Shown here: positions 6,799-32,832 of the stretch, in pieces
Position numbering within the stretch: position 1 is the first letter of the stretch
Layout: the number at the start of each line of letters is the position of its first letter
Made by a program: the position numbers and the translations under genes
NCBI GenBank assembly: GCA_900321635.1
Contig: ONWV01000011.1
Coordinates: forward strand, 1-32,832
Origin: an uncultured Spirochaetaceae bacterium
GTDB taxonomy: Bacteria > Spirochaetota > Spirochaetia > Sphaerochaetales > Sphaerochaetaceae
Reading direction: 5' to 3'
Length of the DNA stretch: 32,832 bases
Notes under the pieces: model-generated
Database searches by the model: none
What the model saw: the letters and a program-made list of their open reading frames with translations, nothing else
What the model was told of the DNA's origin: nothing

Positions 6799-8279
6799 TG
6801 AGGAAAGTTTTCTTTCGCTATTTTCTGAGTATCCTGGCCATAGCGGTAGTAGTTCTGCTTGTCCAGTTCGGTATGCTTATTCTCCAGTACGGCGTAAGCC
6901 AGGAGAGGTGGAAGACCAAAGTCTATGACGATTTTGTCCTCTCGGTCGAAGATGCCATAAACGACGGCTCTGTTGCCGACTATGGTCTTAACAGCATCCT
7001 TTACACAGTGTCTAACATAGAAGACGACAGAATCAGCGGTTTCATCCTCAGAGATATAAGCGGAGCCAATGTGGTGGCTTTCGGACGAAATGCAGAAGGC
7101 AGGATGAACTCGATTATGTCTACATCCCAGATGCCTTCACAGAACCAGGAGCCAACCAAGGTGAACATGGCCACAAGAATCGATGTGGCCTCCACCTATG
7201 ATGCCCGTACAAACACACTGAGCCTTACATCCGTTTCAAGTGTTGAGACAAAGAATGTGGAAATCTCCATGCCCGCCAATCTGATGAACGAGGGAATCAT
7301 CGGTTCCGTAGTCATTGCCGTGGACGGAACGGACGCCTTCATCATCGACCTTCTGACCTACACGCCAAGGACATACAAGTATTCCAAGGACATAATCAAC
7401 TCATGTCTTAAGGCAATGCTCATCTCGCTTCCTGTGTGTCTTGTGATAGCTTTCATTGCCGCATGGATAGTCAGCTCCAGAAATGCCAAATACATCAACG
7501 GAATCAGAAAGGCCTTAAGCGACCTGTCCCACGGAAAGACGGATGTCTCCATTCCCAGACAGAAAAACAGCGAGCTTGATGAGATATCTGTAGCAATAGA
7601 GGACCTTGACCGGGACCTCAAATCCAATGCGAACAGCAGACGTGCATGGCTTTACAGCATATCCCATGACCTGAATACTCCTACAGCCGCCATGAAGATG
7701 ATAATCGACGGTCTGAATGACGGAGTTTTCACAGCAGATGAAAAGACACTGAAGGAGCTTCAGAAGGAAAACGACACCCTGTCCGAAAGAATCGGAAGGG
7801 TCATTGACTTCTCGTCGCTTCAGGCTGACACGCAGCCGGCAATAACAGAAGTTCAGACAGACCGCCTGGTCTCCGACGTTCTTTCTCAGATTAATGAGTC
7901 TGACAAGATCAGCGTCTCAGCTGAATGCACTTCGGTGCGCTGTGATGAGAATCTGATGTCCAGAGCCCTCATCGAGCTTCTTGACAATGCCGTGGAGGCT
8001 TCCTCGGATTCCGAAGAAGGTGTCAGAATCTCAATCAGGGAGAAGGAAGACTCATATGAGGTTCAGATCACAAACGACGGAAAGCTTCCTCAGGACATTG
8101 ATGTGGACTTCTTTGAGCCTTGGACCCGCGGAGACTGGTCCAGAACCTCAGGCGGTTCCGGCCTGGGTCTTCCTATAGCATCTGCAATCATGGCACTGCA
8201 CAAAGGAACCATATCACTGAGACAGATTACTCCGACTTTGGTCTGTGCAAGCGCAATTTGGCCTAAGAATCCTGCTTAA
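6798..8279 (+). CDS. Sensor histidine kinase
   Basis: The 493-residue protein is an inner-membrane kinase. A first helix (about residues 6-29) and a second (about 204-226) flank an extracytoplasmic sensor region of roughly 170 residues without a domain I recognise. A HAMP linker follows to about 275, then the phospho-acceptor box SHDLNTP (His near 289), the ATP-binding N box ELLDNAVEAS (near 393-402) and the G2 loop GGSGLGLPIA (near 451). The usual DxGxG box is degenerate (ITNDGKLP). It pairs with the overlapping response regulator. The 3' end overlaps the convergent thrH by 4 bases, with both stop codons sharing the palindrome TTAA. Confidence 0.94.
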   Translation: MRKVFFRYFLSILAIAVVVLLVQFGMLILQYGVSQERWKTKVYDDFVLSVEDAINDGSVADYGLNSILYTVSNIEDDRISGFILRDISGANVVAFGRNAEGRMNSIMSTSQMPSQNQEPTKVNMATRIDVASTYDARTNTLSLTSVSSVETKNVEISMPANLMNEGIIGSVVIAVDGTDAFIIDLLTYTPRTYKYSKDIINSCLKAMLISLPVCLVIAFIAAWIVSSRNAKYINGIRKALSDLSHGKTDVSIPRQKNSELDEISVAIEDLDRDLKSNANSRRAWLYSISHDLNTPTAAMKMIIDGLNDGVFTADEKTLKELQKENDTLSERIGRVIDFSSLQADTQPAITEVQTDRLVSDVLSQINESDKISVSAECTSVRCDENLMSRALIELLDNAVEASSDSEEGVRISIREKEDSYEVQITNDGKLPQDIDVDFFEPWTRGDWSRTSGGSGLGLPIASAIMALHKGTISLRQITPTLVCASAIWPKNPA

Positions 8280-8884
8280 GATTCAAAGACGAACGACCTT
8301 ATCTCCTCATAGAACTCATCATATGTGGTGCAGAGTCTCAGATCAGGCTCTTCGTTGAGAATGTTCTGAGGGGCTCTGAAAAGACAGCCTTTGTCAGCCT
8401 TGTGAATCATGGTCAGATCGTTGTAGCTGTCTCCTGCTGCGAAGGTTCTGAAGTTCATCTGACGGAAGGCGTCAATAGCCTTACGTTTTCCGTCCTGCTG
8501 CCTGAGCCTCATGCCTGTGAGCATTCCCCTGTGGTCAACCACAAGGCTGTTGCACAGAATCGTCGGCCAGCCGAGCTGCTTCATAAGGGGCTTTGCGAAC
8601 TCAGTGAACGTATCCGAGAGAATCACCACCTGAGTGATTTCACGCACCTTGTCCAGAAACTCCCTTGCTCCGTCCAGGGGACGGATTGTGGCTATGACAT
8701 CCTGGATATCCTTGAGTGTTAGATTATGGTCTTCCAGAATTCCCATCCGGTACTTCATCAGCTTGTCGTAATCAGGTTCCTCACGTGTTGTGATTCTCAG
8801 CTCGGGGATTTTTGTCTTTTCGGCGAATGCGATCCAGATTTCAGGAACAAGAACACCTTCAAGGTCCAGACATACTATTTCCAT
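8276..8884 (-). CDS. thrH: ThrH: phosphoserine phosphatase / homoserine phosphotransferase
   Basis: The 202-residue HAD-superfamily protein begins MEIVCLDLEGVLVPEIW. The DLEGVLVPE motif, with Glu replacing the second HAD aspartate, is diagnostic for ThrH rather than SerB. Further motifs are VVILSDTF (motif II), QDGKRKAID (motif III Lys) and FAAGDSYNDLTMI (motif IV). ThrH of Pseudomonas was shown to dephosphorylate phosphoserine and to pass the phosphate to homoserine. Here it follows thrC by 13 bases with a GAGGAG ribosome site, and no thrB kinase is in the block. A role supplying O-phosphohomoserine to ThrC is therefore likely, though a distant thrB cannot be excluded. Confidence 0.9.
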   Translation of the reverse strand: MEIVCLDLEGVLVPEIWIAFAEKTKIPELRITTREEPDYDKLMKYRMGILEDHNLTLKDIQDVIATIRPLDGAREFLDKVREITQVVILSDTFTEFAKPLMKQLGWPTILCNSLVVDHRGMLTGMRLRQQDGKRKAIDAFRQMNFRTFAAGDSYNDLTMIHKADKGCLFRAPQNILNEEPDLRLCTTYDEFYEEIRSFVFES

Positions 8885-8897
8885 AACAGACTCCTCT

Positions 8898-10370
8898 TCA
8901 GATTCCCAGTACGGAAAGAACGTACTTCAGGATGTTTTCCCTGTCGATCACATCGTTGTGAACGGACTTTTTGCTCTCAAGCGAGCTGAGGTTCTTCGGA
9001 ACAGGGACACCGGTTTTCAGATTGATCGCCTTAATCTGCTCGAACTCGCTTCCTTTCACTTCAAGTCCTATGGCCTCGGAGACAGGAGTGGGGAACTTGT
9101 AAGGCGATGCGGTTGAAAGGACAACCGTAGGAACATCGTCCTTTTTGTCCTTTCTGTAGTCATCGGCCACCTTCATTCCTACGGCAGTGTGGGGATCGCA
9201 GAGATAGTTGTCCTTTTTATACACATCTCCTATTGTCCTGATGGTCTCCTTTTCCGTACATGAGTAGGAGAGGAAGGTCTCTCTGATTTTGGCCATGTAC
9301 TTTTCGTCGACCGTGAAGATGCCTTCAGAGGAAAGGTCTGACATCCATTTTGAGACAACGGATGCATTGCAGCCCGATGCAAGAAACAGAAGCCTTTCCA
9401 AATTCGACGAGACAAGAATATCCATGGAAGGGGAGCTTGTCCTGTAGAACGGTCTTCTCTTGTCGTAGACACCTGTTCTGATGAAATCCGTCAGAACCTT
9501 GTTCTCGTTGGAGGCACATACCAGATTTCTTACAGGAAGGCCCATGAGCTTTGCAAAATATCCTGCAAGGATGTCACCGAAGTTTCCCGAAGGAACCACA
9601 TAGTCCACTTTGTCTTCCATCTTTATCCTGCCCATCGAAACCAGATCCGAGTAGGCTTTGAAGTAATACACAACCTGAGGAGCCAGACGTCCGATGTTGA
9701 TTGAGTTTGCCGAAGACAGGGCTTTTTTAGCCTGAGAGAGCTCCTTCATGGAGTTGATTTTGGAAAATGCCACCTTAACGGCAGTCTGACAGTCATCGAA
9801 ATTGCCTCTGACAGCGCAGACTTTGACGTTGGCTCCTTCCTGGGTTGCCATCTGAGCCCTCTGAATGGGAGAAACACCTCCGTCCGGGTAGAAAACGATG
9901 ATCCTTGTTCCGGGAACATCATGAAAGCCCTCCATCGCAGCCTTTCCCGTATCACCGGATGTGGCTGTGAGAATGACGGTCTCTTTGTCATCTCCCGTCT
10001 GCTTTTTTGCTGCTATAATCAGCTGCGGGAGCATTGAAAGGGCCACATCCTTGAATGCGGATGTGGGACCGCGGAACAGCTCAAGCACATATTTGTCTCC
10101 GACCTTCACGACCGGGGTCAGGTCCTTTGTCTCGAACTTGCCCTCATATGCCTTATTCACAAGGTCCTTCATATCCTTGAAATCCGGAAGCAGGTGGGAC
10201 AGAATCTTTTCAGCCATGCCCAGGGTATCCAGGCCTATGACAGCCTTCCAGTCAAAACCCTTGCCGATATCGCTGTCCGATACAAACAGACCCCCGTCCG
10301 GGGCGATGCCTCTTAATACCGCATCAAGACTGTTGCATCTGAATTCAGATCGAGTGCTTCTATAATCCAT
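8898..10370 (-). CDS. thrC: Threonine synthase
   Basis: ThrC converts O-phosphohomoserine to threonine with pyridoxal phosphate. The 490-residue product shows MDYRSTRSE at the N-terminus, DGGLFV, the cofactor lysine K107 in GPTSAFKDVALSM, and the phosphate-binding TATSGDTGKAAMEGF. YPDGGVSP and VPSGNFGDILAGY complete the fungal/enterobacterial-type ThrC pattern. I start at ATG 10370 because AAGGAG lies just upstream. The longer frame reaching 10427 runs through the 3' end of the ACT gene. It lies 10 bases after that regulator and 13 before thrH, forming a leftward operon divergent from hom-lysC. Confidence 0.96.
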   Translation of the reverse strand: MDYRSTRSEFRCNSLDAVLRGIAPDGGLFVSDSDIGKGFDWKAVIGLDTLGMAEKILSHLLPDFKDMKDLVNKAYEGKFETKDLTPVVKVGDKYVLELFRGPTSAFKDVALSMLPQLIIAAKKQTGDDKETVILTATSGDTGKAAMEGFHDVPGTRIIVFYPDGGVSPIQRAQMATQEGANVKVCAVRGNFDDCQTAVKVAFSKINSMKELSQAKKALSSANSINIGRLAPQVVYYFKAYSDLVSMGRIKMEDKVDYVVPSGNFGDILAGYFAKLMGLPVRNLVCASNENKVLTDFIRTGVYDKRRPFYRTSSPSMDILVSSNLERLLFLASGCNASVVSKWMSDLSSEGIFTVDEKYMAKIRETFLSYSCTEKETIRTIGDVYKKDNYLCDPHTAVGMKVADDYRKDKKDDVPTVVLSTASPYKFPTPVSEAIGLEVKGSEFEQIKAINLKTGVPVPKNLSSLESKKSVHNDVIDRENILKYVLSVLGI

Positions 10371-26039: not shown

Positions 26040-26050
26040 CTTTAATGCAT

Positions 26051-26124
<74 letters not shown>

Positions 26125-26129
26125 ACGCA

Positions 26130-26161: not shown

Positions 26162-26185
26162 CGTGTTATTGGTGACATGATAGAG

Positions 26186-26320
26186 CTCGAAGCTTGGCGG
26201 TAGGAGAACAGTCCAGTGGACTGTTCGAAGCCAAGCCGGCCCGGAAGCCGGACATCAGGTAGGCGGAGGGCGAGCCCAAGTCGCCGTCTACCCGATTGGC
26301 AAAAGCGAGCCCAAGTCGCC
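26186..26320 (+). repeat. Structured segment with two extra copies of the tRNA-Arg 3' end
   Basis: The 17 bases CGAGCCCAAGTCGCCGT, the T-arm and acceptor 3' strand of the tRNA (26107-26123), recur exactly at 26271-26287, and their first 15 bases recur at 26306-26320. Upstream of them lies a perfect palindrome at 26206-26226 (10-bp arms GAACAGTCCA and TGGACTGTTC around one G), bracketed by GCTTGGC (26192-26198) and GCCAAGC (26230-26236). Repeated tRNA 3' ends are usually attachment-site scars. No integrase gene is present, and the whole segment is non-coding as far as I can see. Confidence 0.75.
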
Positions 26321-29958: not shown

Positions 29959-30013
29959 ATATTTATAAGAGCTTGACCAGTAAAACGGTATGCGGTTGAT
30001 TGCCTCTCCAGCT

Positions 30014-30048
30014 CTGCTGAGAGGTGCAAAACCTCTAATTCCCAGCAG
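30014..30048 (+). promoter_or_regulatory. 5' UTR stem-loop next to the toxin Shine-Dalgarno
   Basis: CTGCTG (30014-30019) pairs with CAGCAG (30043-30048), and inside it AGAGGT (30020-30025) with ACCTCT (30031-30036). The stem ends three bases before AAGGAGG (30051-30057). ACCTC in the stem can also pair with GAGGT of the ribosome site, an alternative fold that would block translation. Confidence 0.7.
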
Positions 30049-30065
30049 GAAAGGAGGTGATGCTT

Positions 30066-30146
30066 ATGACCGATTATGAGATTCTAATGATTGTATTCAC
30101 AGTCGTTCTAATTGTAGTAACAGTTATAAAAAATAACCGCACCTGA
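30066..30146 (+). CDS. Small hydrophobic peptide, putative type I (holin-like) toxin
   Basis: The 26-residue peptide has an acidic N-terminus (MTDYE), one valine/isoleucine-rich membrane span of about 17 residues (ILMIVFTVVLIVVTVI) and a basic polar end (KNNRT). This is the design of the small 'holin-like'/TxpA-type toxins of Firmicutes, which insert in the inner membrane. AAGGAGGTG (30051-30059) is close to a perfect anti-16S match with 8-base spacing to ATG 30066; the ATG at 30060 is too close. The stop codon lies inside a bidirectional terminator, and a convergent antisense promoter follows. It is too short for usual gene calling. The family is inferred from architecture. Confidence 0.8.
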   Translation: MTDYEILMIVFTVVLIVVTVIKNNRT

Positions 30147-30218
30147 CGCCAATCGGATTGCGGTTATTCTTTAACCAATTCGGAGAGGCATCAACCGTAT
30201 ACCGGTCAAGCTCTCTTC
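30130..30218 (-). ncRNA. Predicted antisense antitoxin RNA
   Basis: From the promoter at 30252-30225 transcription would begin near 30218 and run left through the toxin 3' UTR to the bidirectional hairpin at 30168-30132, ending in TTATTTTTTATAAC on the minus strand. The RNA would be about 90 bases and complementary to the last toxin codons and the 3' region. Pairing with the toxin mRNA 3' end is the usual type I control. Its ends are predicted, not measured. Confidence 0.65.
30132..30168. terminator. Bidirectional terminator overlapping the toxin stop
   Basis: AATAACCGCA (30132-30141) and TGCGGTTATT (30159-30168) form a perfect 10-bp stem. T-rich tracts occur on both sides (TTATTCTTT on the plus strand; TTATTTTTTAT on the minus), so it can end both toxin and antitoxin RNAs. 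The toxin stop TGA is at 30144-30146 in the loop. Confidence 0.9.
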
Positions 30219-30252: not shown

Positions 30253-30307
30253 ATATTGGTATGGCCGTTAACCCTGTTAAAGTGTCATTTGAGGGCTTTC
30301 TGCTGGA

Positions 30308-30550
30308 TTTGGAGAGTTTTGCAAGATTTGCAAGGTGTGCAAGATTTGCAAGATTTACAAGATTTGCAAAGTGTGCAAGATTTGCTGGCTGTGCAGGAAT
30401 CAAAACAATTGGTATTATCCTTGCCCAGCAGGCTTACGAGCTTTAGCACCGTTAGCAGGTTTATCAGCTTTATCACGCCCATCAGGCCTATCAACCGCAG
30501 GAGCTTTATCAGCTTCAGCAGCTTTATCAAGCCTACCAAAACCTTCCAAA
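30308..30550 (+). repeat. 9-nt-unit repeat element, copy 2
   Basis: Same order as copy 1 but on the plus strand: TTTGGAGAGTTTTG, GCAAGATTT-type units, the conserved middle with GGAATCAAAACAATTGG, AGCTTTATC-type units and AAACCTTCCAA. Compared with copy 1 there is an extra stretch of about 130 bases between the terminator hairpin and the first units, which carries the antisense promoter. Open frames through it are repeat artefacts. The element runs up to a copy of the tRNA-Pro 3' end at 30584. Confidence 0.85.
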
Positions 30551-30583: not shown

Positions 30584-30601
30584 GGGGCGAAAGGACTCGA
30601 A
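30584..30601 (-). repeat. Copy of the tRNA-Pro 3' end (left)
   Basis: GGGGCGAAAGGACTCGAA at 30584-30601 is identical to 32531-32548, the T-arm and acceptor 3' half of the tRNA-Pro gene read from the opposite strand. It has the same orientation as the tRNA, and no other part of a tRNA is present. It marks the left limit of the BspA islet. Confidence 0.85.
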
Positions 30602-30647
30602 TTACCTTTTGTCTTTTATTCCAGTATTTACCACTTAGTATTGGTTG

Positions 30648-30676
30648 ATATAACTTTATTACAGCAATAGTTATAT
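30648..30676. repeat. Inverted repeat left of the BspA gene
   Basis: ATATAACT (30648-30655) and AGTTATAT (30669-30676) are exact complements with a 13-base loop; the pairing can be extended with TTG and CAA if a one-base bulge is allowed. There is no T-tract on the strand of the BspA gene, so a terminator is unlikely. Confidence 0.5.
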
Positions 30677-30708
30677 GTCAATCTGCATTGGTGTGGAGTT
30701 ATCTCCAT

Positions 30709-30736
30709 TTGGTACAACAATTGGTACAACAATTGA
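30709..30736 (+). repeat. Left flanking direct repeat of the BspA islet
   Basis: Two tandem TTGGTACAACAA units (30709-30720 and 30721-30732) followed by TTGA. The same 28-bp arrangement occurs at 32298-32325 with three differences, in direct orientation. Confidence 0.85.
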
Positions 30737-30774
30737 GTTTTAACATGAATGGCTTGCTATTTTCATTTTTCGTC

Positions 30775-32007
30775 TTATATGATGTCTCCATCGATACAAT
30801 GCACAATGCAAGACTTTGGAATTATAATACCCCTAGAGTTTAGATTCGCCCATTGAGACTTGGTTCCCTCGAATAATACATCTTTGAGATTACTGCAAGC
30901 CGCTATTGCTTCTTTTCCCATTGAGGTAACCGATGCAGGTATTATTAGTTCTCGAATATTTGTTCTTTCAAATGCCCAGTCTCCAATGCTTGTAATTGAA
31001 TTTGGAATAGTGACATCGGTCAACATCACACATCCCATGAAAGTGCTTGAATTAATTGCAGTAGCAGAAGTGGGGATATTAACAGTAGTTAAACTTGAGC
31101 AGTCCCTAAATCCGGGCATCGTTGTCAATGTGTTTGGTAGTGAAACCCGTTCTAGTGATTTGCAGCCTATGAATGGGGCATCAATAAGAGATGTTACCCA
31201 ATTTGGGATGGTAACTTCAGTTATAGAATCACAGCCGGCAAAAGCACCGTTACCAATAGAGGTGAGAGAGAGAGGAAAATCAAGGTTGCTCAGATTAGTA
31301 CAAGCGAAGGAGCGTCCTCCAATTGTTTTTAATGAATTTGGAAAATTAACAGAATTGAGAGATTTGCAAAAATCAAAAGCATTGTCACCAATTACAGTAA
31401 CTGAATTAGGGATAATGACGGATTCGAGTGAATAACATCCAGAAAATGCAGAATTCCCGATAGAGACAACTTTCACCCCTCTAATCTCAGAAGGTATGGT
31501 GACATCTCCAATGACTAACTCCTTATCGATGACGGTTAATGTCCCTTCTGTAGTTATTTTGTAGTTCCCCTCAATTATCTCGCCTTCTCTATAGTCACAT
31601 ACTTGACAACTTCCATATGCAGTAAGAGTATGCTCACTTTTTTCTGTTACCACATCATGTCTGCATGTAGCGGAATGCCAGTGATAGGTTTCATCATAAG
31701 ACCATCCCGACGAGAATGTATGAGCATCTACTAAGGCAGGGGTAATATCTGTTTTCTCATACTTGCAAACAAGACAAATATGGCTAGCATATCCATCTTC
31801 ATAATGGGTTGGTGGAACGGGATCTGAGTTAGACCAACTATGTCGAATTTTACCGGATATTACATCATGACCACAAGTTGATTCATGCCAGTGGTAAGTC
31901 TCATCTGATGACCACTCCGAATTAAATGTATGTGTATGAGGTGCCTCACAAGCAATTACTAACAATACACAAAGCAACAATAAGAGCAGAGTAAGATTTC
32001 TTGACAT
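30775..32007 (-). CDS. BspA-like leucine-rich-repeat lipoprotein
   Basis: The 410-residue protein starts at ATG 32007 with MSRNLTLLLLLLCVLLVIAC, a lipoprotein signal ending in lipobox VIAC, so it is anchored at the surface or outer membrane. Two modules with HTF..W..DETYHWH..C.HDV (about residues 25-50 and 97-122) follow; their paired His and Cys could bind a metal. From about residue 150 on there are LRR_5 repeats of the BspA type (VTSIGNGAFAGCDSITEVTI and similar), which in treponemes and oral anaerobes mediate adhesion. The gene is visibly richer in A and T than the core genes and sits between direct repeats and tRNA fragments, which points to horizontal acquisition. Confidence 0.9.
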   Translation of the reverse strand: MSRNLTLLLLLLCVLLVIACEAPHTHTFNSEWSSDETYHWHESTCGHDVISGKIRHSWSNSDPVPPTHYEDGYASHICLVCKYEKTDITPALVDAHTFSSGWSYDETYHWHSATCRHDVVTEKSEHTLTAYGSCQVCDYREGEIIEGNYKITTEGTLTVIDKELVIGDVTIPSEIRGVKVVSIGNSAFSGCYSLESVIIPNSVTVIGDNAFDFCKSLNSVNFPNSLKTIGGRSFACTNLSNLDFPLSLTSIGNGAFAGCDSITEVTIPNWVTSLIDAPFIGCKSLERVSLPNTLTTMPGFRDCSSLTTVNIPTSATAINSSTFMGCVMLTDVTIPNSITSIGDWAFERTNIRELIIPASVTSMGKEAIAACSNLKDVLFEGTKSQWANLNSRGIIIPKSCIVHCIDGDII

Positions 32008-32046
32008 GTAGTTTTCCCCGACCCCGTAAATTGAAAGTACACCCAT

Positions 32047-32075
32047 ATGGTACTAGACTCAGTGATAATTCGCAA
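32047..32075 (-). promoter_or_regulatory. Possible promoter of the BspA-like gene
   Basis: Minus-strand TTGCGA (32075-32070), 17 bp, TACCAT (32052-32047) lie about 40 bases before the ATG. Both boxes are weak matches. Confidence 0.35.
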
Positions 32076-32297
32076 TGCTTAAACGGAATCAAATTAGACT
32101 TGTATTGGTCTGCCCTATTCCACTACATAGGCGATGATTCAAGGTATCAATATCAACTCTGTTCTTGGGTAGTTTTGCCCCATTGGATGGTTCACGAAAC
32201 CATGCAAAAAAATGGTTGTCTGACTTCTTTGCGTTCTTCTTTTTTGACTTGCGAGTACAGATAATGAATCTTTCCATCATCAATCCTTCAAGGGTAA

Positions 32298-32325
32298 TCG
32301 GTACAACGATTGGTACAACAGTTGA
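32298..32325 (+). repeat. Right flanking direct repeat of the BspA islet
   Basis: TCGGTACAACGA and TTGGTACAACAG in tandem, then TTGA; 25 of 28 bases match the repeat at 30709-30736. The 220 bases between the BspA promoter and this repeat (32076-32297) show no gene or other signal I can support. Confidence 0.85.
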
Positions 32326-32370
32326 CCATTTGGAATAGAATAGAGCTGCTGAAAAAATGACAAGTGGTAC

Positions 32371-32476
32371 GGGGCGAAAGGACTCGCTTTTGGCTACTGG
32401 AAGTCCGCCAAAAGCCGGCTACGCTGCAGGACCCTGCGCGTCTCGGCTCCTGCCTGACGCTCCGCTTCGAGTCCTT
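32371..32476 (-). repeat. Structured segment ending in a second copy of the tRNA-Pro 3' end
   Basis: GGGGCGAAAGGACTCG (32371-32386) repeats 16 bases of the tRNA-Pro 3' end, and 32370 matches too. An inverted 11-base copy TTCGAGTCCTT is at 32466-32476, so AAGGACTCG and CGAGTCCTT can close a stem around the segment. Inside are CTTTTGGC/GCCAAAAG, GCAGG/CCTGC and GCGTC/GACGC pairings, giving a multi-arm fold. On the tRNA strand it shares CTCGAAGC, GCCGGC, CGGAC and CAAAAGCGAG, in this order, with the segment downstream of tRNA-Arg. Confidence 0.7.
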
Positions 32477-32493
32477 ACTGAGCCCGATAAATG

Positions 32494-32522
32494 AAAAAAG
32501 ACTGGAGTGAATCCAGTCTTTT
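32494..32522 (-). terminator. tRNA-Pro terminator
   Basis: AAAAGACTGGA (32496-32506) and TCCAGTCTTTT (32512-32522) form an 11-bp stem with a 5-base loop; on the tRNA strand it ends in a run of six T. Confidence 0.9.
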
Positions 32523-32528
32523 GTCATT

Positions 32529-32601
32529 TCGGGGCGAAAGGACTCGAACCTTCGATATCCTGCTCCCAAAGCAGGCGCCATAGCCGCTAGGCAACGCCCC
32601 G
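32529..32601 (-). tRNA. tRNA-Pro (anticodon UGG)
   Basis: On the minus strand the acceptor CGGGGCG pairs fully with CGCCCCG and A73 is at 32529. The D stem is GCC/GGC, the anticodon stem CCTGC/GCAGG with loop TTTGGGA (anticodon TGG) and the T arm GAAGG-TTCGAGT-CCTTT. The C1-G72 pair is characteristic of bacterial tRNA-Pro. CCA is not encoded. Two partial copies of its 3' end lie to the left. Confidence 0.93.
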
Positions 32602-32659: not shown

Positions 32660-32832
32660 ATGAGGCAACAAATTCTTGAGTTCTACAACATTCTGGAGGG
32701 TGTTTCTCCCAAAGAAATCAGTTTTCTGGAGCGTCGCAATCCGTTTCAGTTTCTGGTAAGTGTGATACTCAGCGCGCAGACTACGGATGCCATGGTCAAT
32801 CAGGTGACACCTGAGCTTTTCAGATGCTATCC
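32660..32832 (+). CDS. nth: Endonuclease III, N-terminal fragment
   Basis: The frame from ATG 32660 runs off the window after 57 codons. NPFQFLVSVILSAQTTDAMV followed by NQVTPELF is the N-terminal signature of endonuclease III, a base-excision glycosylase/lyase for oxidised pyrimidines. The catalytic Lys, Asp and iron-sulphur cysteines lie beyond the window. No clear Shine-Dalgarno precedes the ATG. It is divergent from tRNA-Pro, so the two promoters share the short gap. Confidence 0.9.
   Translation, partial: MRQQILEFYNILEGVSPKEISFLERRNPFQFLVSVILSAQTTDAMVNQVTPELFRCY

Follow-up and report, generated by a model that had tools for sequence, protein, structure and literature searches.

Bacterial mobile elements classically insert at the tails of tRNA genes, and any given integrase is as a rule bound to a single tailored core. 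The DNA analyzed here (the window) is a stretch of 32,832 nt that makes up one entire contig (C39) of an uncultured Spirochaetaceae assembly, which at 1.83 Mb and 81% completeness sets the scope of our whole-genome counts. It raises the question of what the repeated copies of a tRNA-Pro tail represent. The tRNA-Pro(TGG) gene lies at 32529-32601 on the minus strand (ARAGORN and Rfam RF00005), with a terminator hairpin (T1) at 32496-32522 on the same strand, and its tail at 32531-32548 is the template of the copies. The 18-mer GGGGCGAAAGGACTCGAA is exact at this 3' end and at 30584-30601 (minus strand), a distal copy that runs from T54 onward. A middle copy carries the 16-mer GGGGCGAAAGGACTCG at 32371-32386, with identity to the tRNA-Pro tail there covering 17 nt (32370-32386). 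All three share one orientation. Allowing up to three mismatches, the tail matched the window three times compared to 0.21 expected by shuffling, with no shuffle reaching three, and a search of the whole 1.83-Mb assembly with up to one mismatch returned only the same three sites; together these results rule out a chance repeat. An earlier note had claimed the 18-mer pair, the copy of 16-17 bases and their common direction, all of which proved exact, and had taken the copies as bounds of an islet with a BspA-like gene. Separately, contig C45 ends (8943-9041) with the same 99 bases as the window (32734-32832), which marks an assembly joint within nth.

Rather than a plain att repeat, the middle copy is one arm of a hairpin module of about 118 nt (32370-32487). 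Read on the tRNA strand, the tRNA is followed by the terminator, the inverted tail, a 79-nt body, and the direct tail CGAGTCCTTTCGCCCCG. The 5' arm (32466-32487, minus) is the inverted tRNA tail TCGGG-CTCAGT-AAGGACTCGAA, in which 6 nt form an unpaired spacer, while the 3' arm (32370-32386, minus) is the direct 17-nt tail copy and the probable tRNA-side junction of the BspA islet. Between them lies a body (32387-32465, minus) of the first of three types described below, with two inner hairpin arms and 90% identity to the body behind the same tRNA in congener G009; no such body adjoins the distal copy. The predicted fold is a branched hairpin, with z-scores of -3.1 as RNA and -2.9 as DNA. BLAST searches in congeners returned homologous bodies that, with few exceptions, immediately follow other tRNA genes, and these homologues carry the tail of their adjoining tRNA in both orientations.

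Across six genomes, we surveyed 173 tRNAs and obtained the 37 modules that were analyzed. They follow a common plan: tRNA positions 54-73 in inverted copy, with a spacer that stays unpaired; a conserved structured body; and positions 56-73 in direct copy, often with the tRNA's terminator repeated behind it. The inverted arm starts 42-57 nt past the tRNA (median 52 across the 37 modules). The terminator after the direct copy resembles the first in 10 of 34 cases, and at tRNA-Met of G005 the two are identical over about 50 nt. Bodies fall into three types: I (GCGGAGCGTCAGGCAG...), II (GCGGTAGGAGGAC...GTCCGAAGC), and III (ACGAGGAGCAAAGCAGGTGC...). Within the genome that the window comes from, 17 of 44 tRNA genes carry a module, as does the tmRNA gene. 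Counting by rule and by eye gives slightly different numbers, and the figure of about 17 includes a degenerate module at Gly-CCC. A second module in the window, of type II, lies at 26167-26287 (plus strand) behind tRNA-Arg(TCT) (26050-26126, plus), with its inverted arm ending at 26191, its core copy at 26271-26287, and a covariance-model match at 26181-26279 (E 2e-23). An extra truncated tail copy (GGCAAAAG plus core) is present behind the same tRNA at 26298-26320. Truncated second copies consisting of body end and tail, and tandem whole units, occur in the family, and module presence varies between orthologous tRNAs, with empty sites in congeners.

A covariance model made from 33 modules and run against 139 Sphaerochaetaceae genomes detected modules in 17 genomes from 5 of 22 genera (best E 2e-24), comprising 10 of the 11 genomes of the window's own genus and members of four other genera. 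The named genomes carrying modules are metagenome assemblies. Of the 50 model matches that we examined, 44 are located immediately 3' of a tRNA or tmRNA gene; of the six others, two or three sit at the end of a contig and the remainder appear displaced. L061 (G003:C170) and L069 (G005:C17) hold displaced modules that have tRNA-Leu(GAG) arms but lack an adjoining tRNA, and the one in L069 adjoins a transposase-like ORF. The exact type II pattern was found in 20 stretches across 84,980 species, of which 19 belong to metagenome assemblies of spirochaetes (where a source is stated, it is the rumen or the horse gut); the remaining one, a Bdellovibrionales match with no adjoining tRNA, was taken as chance. 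The same pattern, the sole body type searched there, had no match in IMG/VR.

Rfam at the gathering score recognized only the tRNA, and a permissive search with the module gave no credible match, so a known RNA family was rejected as the module's identity. We did not find a description of the module in the open-access literature searched, which is weak evidence of absence. The modules belong to no family tested, as they lack attC box ends, REP-type dispersal, and an Rfam match; the comparison with published repeats was made through Rfam. Because no tested family fits, and on the basis of literature searches limited to an open-access library, we describe them as a previously unlisted family of DNA hairpins of about 120 bases that follow numerous tRNA genes in one group of spirochaetes from the gut.

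Several further sequences were observed near tRNA genes or their copied tails. A small palindrome, GTCAAGG...TCAAGATGAACGGC...GCCGCCCTTGAC, lies inside tRNA-tail copies at L092 (G000:C89) and L133 (G000:C75). Imperfect 9-nt periodic repeats (GATTTGCAA; AGCTTTATC) are present in the window at 30306-30540 and at L078, L085, and L104, and recur downstream of other tRNAs or modules. At about 7658-10313 of G004:C1, a Y1 transposase and a fragment of an integrase lie downstream of tRNA-Lys(CTT). The window also contains, at 29968-30214, a mini-ORF bounded by inverted repeats (MTDYEILMIVFTVVLIVVTVIKNNRT) that resembles small hydrophobic type I toxins; it had no match in an NCBIfam search, and similar sequence is found in G000:C92 behind tRNA-Ser(GCT) (L097/L136).

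While the body is common to different tRNAs, both arms match the local one. The direct copy fits its own tRNA best in 36 of 37 modules, with a mean of 15.4 of 16 matches compared to 8.0 for other tRNAs. For the inverted arm, the corresponding values are 9.9 of 11 and 7.0, and its acceptor part, although more degenerate, still fits its own tRNA (0 of 1000 permutations). Variation at tRNA positions 54-55 is likewise mirrored in the inverted arm (Fisher p = 3e-6), which reads GAA in 30 of 31 modules where tRNA positions 54-56 are TTC and GGA in all six where they are TCC. Since positions 54-55 are missing from the direct copy, the inverted arm either was copied from the tRNA gene itself or is kept complementary to it.

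Complementarity maintained by selection is the core of the main rival reading, in which modules are functional RNA genes, expressed by read-through or separate transcription, whose 3' end would mimic the tRNA acceptor and T-arm or whose 5' arm would pair with the tRNA tail. The extension of arm complementarity to positions 54-55, beyond the module's own hairpin, is consistent with this, and stem covariation, which we count for the preferred reading below as well, points the same way: in 14 of 20 predicted body pairs, both sides have changed with pairing kept. The unpaired motifs GGTAGGAG/GAAG are conserved, and a second terminator often lies downstream, as behind a gene. However, a terminator separates the tRNA from the module, presence is patchy between orthologous tRNAs, one congener has no model match, truncated and tandem copies occur, and Rfam offers no match. 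On balance, we regard a functional RNA as a rather unlikely explanation.

Vertical inheritance accounts for some modules: bodies at the same tRNA in different species are 90% alike at Pro-TGG (G000 and G009) and 82% alike at Arg-TCT (G005 and G008). Close similarity also occurs between different tRNAs of one genome, with bodies 91-96% alike at four G000 tRNAs (Asp, Leu-CAG, Ser-CGA, and Lys-CTT) and 94% alike at Arg-TCT and Arg-TCG of G004. In a test of spread, the nearest body was within the same genome in 11 cases compared to 7.7 by chance, which is not a significant excess (p = 0.16); this result and the vertical inheritance count against the preferred reading given below.

Taking the location, arm matching, structure, and patchy occurrence of the modules as observed, we infer that the body may spread as a folded single-stranded hairpin, through a DNA or RNA intermediate, that would insert at the T-loop of a duplicated tRNA tail. 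Both arms would then be rewritten by copying the new host tRNA, giving the module matching flanks wherever it inserts. The geometry of the module is that of a T-loop cut, with the top strand running from C56 and the bottom strand to T54, bridged by the body; local tail copying on both strands after such a cut would rewrite the arms. A 2-nt staggered cut, or local templating, would produce an inverted arm that, as here, extends 2 nt deeper into the T-loop than the direct copy. Our preferred reading of the locus as a whole, a hairpin module placed by tail-templated insertion and followed by a later, separate integrase-type insertion of the BspA segment at the module's tail copy, is one to which we give slightly less than an even chance. 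We propose more tentatively that the modules could form a new class of insertion element in bacteria. Such elements would target tRNA and tmRNA tails by means of a structured body and rewrite both arms from the adjoining gene, which would allow one body to serve many different tRNAs, and the tail copies that they leave would be decoys for integrase elements.

Among proteins of the integrase family (PF00589), only a tandem XerC/XerD-like pair was found in the window's own, 81%-complete genome. No other pair of this family is common to the genus, and other PF00589 matches are sporadic. A reverse transcriptase was rejected as the shared motor, being present in only 3 of 11 congeners.

The BspA islet (30602-32369, 1.77 kb, GC 0.39) holds a gene on the minus strand at 30775-32046, with a likely start at 32007, for a BspA-like leucine-rich repeat protein with a lipobox-like N-terminus; its product is lipoprotein-like with BspA-type LRR_5 repeats (E 4e-54). 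The segment is foreign in composition. The GC content of 30602-32370 is 0.388 compared to 0.488 for the window, and the GC3 of the gene is 0.31 compared to 0.56-0.65 in three neighbors. No integrase ORF was found in 30602-32370. The description of the islet in the earlier note as AT-rich and lacking an integrase was thus borne out.

Both ends of the islet carry arm-like repeats made of tandem 12-mers (TTGTTGTACCA) and 24 of 26 identical between ends: TTGTACCAATCGTTGTACC at 32300-32325 (minus), 46 bp inside the module's core copy, and TTGTACCAATTGTTGTACC at 30711-30736 (minus), 110 bp inside the distal core. The strict 20-mer of this repeat was found in ten IMG/VR stretches, mostly within genes. 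Both intergenic stretches, L336 and L341, adjoin a tyrosine integrase. In L336 (PF00589, E 4e-16), which looks to come from a tRNA-targeting phage, arm-like repeats lie on both sides of a tRNA-Met tail in an attP-like arrangement, and in L341 the repeat is 103 bp from an integrase (PF00589, E 1.5e-18) with an Arm-DNA-bind_5 domain. The looser motif GTTGTACCA-N-GTTGTACCA lies mostly inside genes and was near an integrase in 1 of 78 cases, with no enrichment; the arm claim therefore rests on the strict 20-mer.

We consider the module copy at 32371 a more likely tRNA-side junction of the islet than the tRNA itself because the arm repeat at 32300-32325 is 46 bp from the former and 205 bp from the latter. 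The distal core shares 18 nt with the tRNA compared to 16 with the module copy, which slightly favors an origin from the tRNA. The segment with the BspA gene (30584-32386) probably represents a second, later, and separate integrase-type insertion at the module's core copy. With cores at 32371 and 30584 and arm-like repeats inside both ends, it would be a tyrosine-integrase-type element that has lost its own integrase or relies on one in trans, and the module would have served as its landing pad, sparing the tRNA itself. If the junction is indeed the module copy, the islet would hold cargo only, much like the cis-mobilizable elements that have been proposed for Dehalococcoides ssrA (PMC3146451).

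The earlier view treated 30584-32548 as one tRNA-Pro islet or the remnant of a larger island, with the middle copy as an accretion scar. Three tail copies in one orientation, foreign composition, and arm-like repeats agree with it, and Dehalococcoides ssrA is a known site of tandem islands in which tails are repeated and some members hold only cargo (PMC3146451). However, the same inverted-plus-direct module stands without cargo behind many tRNAs, and congeners have a module at tRNA-Pro with no BspA gene, so we find a single islet of this extent improbable. Because a cargo-free module family was found elsewhere, that view holds only for 30584-32386. We find no support for the idea that tail copies as such delimit a BspA islet: copies without BspA stand behind about 17 tRNAs and the tmRNA gene of the window's genome, and in four other genera. 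Support for the original claim comes from the foreign composition, the position at a tRNA 3' end, the absence of BspA there in congeners, and the core and arm-like repeats at both ends, which recall the attP arrangement in L336. An empty tRNA-Pro site, which the earlier note had proposed to seek in relatives, is present in G008, where an epimerase gene ends 43 nt past the tRNA with no BspA gene. BspA relatives are common in the genus at other sites (best 33% over most of the length), with none at tRNA-Pro. Such genes away from the cores had been named as grounds for refutation; they exist, but none is an ortholog of the islet gene. As these relatives are widespread away from tRNA cores, BspA was rejected as the defining cargo.

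In these spirochaetes, then, tail copies behind tRNAs are by themselves no proof of a genomic island. A short element behind about 18 tRNA-like genes of a single genome, with arms matched to each, would need either a way of re-targeting or a function linked to the tail, and neither is found in any of the families tested. If the proposal is true, this new element class leaves decoy tails where integrase elements can land.

Of the known systems, integron attC sites form imperfect palindromes of about 57-142 nt in which two paired boxes are combined with extrahelical bases, a central spacer that stays unpaired, and a tip that varies and is sometimes branched (PMC2727003). The modules share this topology and length range, from outer box, spacer, and inner box to bulge and branched tip, and could be read as attC-like folded sites that a tyrosine recombinase recombines with tRNA tails. 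The R and L boxes would be the tRNA acceptor and T-stem, flanking the unpaired central spacer and an extrahelical AA, and the body would be the variable terminal structure. Unlike attC sites, none of the 37 modules has GTT/AAC box ends; they have no gene cassettes and are confined to tRNA and tmRNA genes. A PF00589 search of the genus, in which the window's own genome is 81% complete, recognized no integron integrase, with only the XerC/D-like pair being shared among its matches. The arms of modules copy the adjoining tRNA, and this reading does not explain the match of both arms to each tRNA. We accordingly doubt this reading.

REP and REPIN sequences resemble the modules in being short non-coding palindromes with a GTAG motif beside a hairpin, and the type II body has a REP-like series of GTAG, hairpin, and GAAG. 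With Y1 proteins in 9 of 11 congeners, the modules might be REP-like elements moved by a Y1 (RAYT) transposase, preferring tRNA tails by chance. REPs, however, are dispersed between genes and have no target-matched arms, whereas modules match the adjoining gene and are confined to tRNA and tmRNA tails, as in the 44 of 50 model matches noted above. Y1 as a motor was rejected, as it is present in many module-free genomes and was not found in G018 and G021, which both carry modules. We think a REP-like origin very unlikely.

At E. coli tyrT, the RtT repeats lie in tandem behind the tRNA gene, and every unit includes the tRNA 3' end; they occupy one locus and are not known to have an inverted copy. 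The modules, by comparison, occur at about 18 genes per genome, share a common body, and have no Rfam match.

Islands at tRNA genes and ssrA offer the remaining comparison. At Dehalococcoides ssrA, tandem islands with repeated tail copies include cargo-only members, and cis-mobilizable elements have been proposed (PMC3146451). The window resembles them in its direct tail copies downstream of the tRNA and in the BspA segment, which is cargo between copies without an integrase. This segment agrees with an integrase island in having a tRNA 3'-end direct repeat at both ends and an empty site in a relative, and differs in lacking its own integrase. The modules, in contrast to such islands, are about 120 nt long and non-coding, carry an inverted tail copy as well as a direct one, and share one body across many tRNAs.
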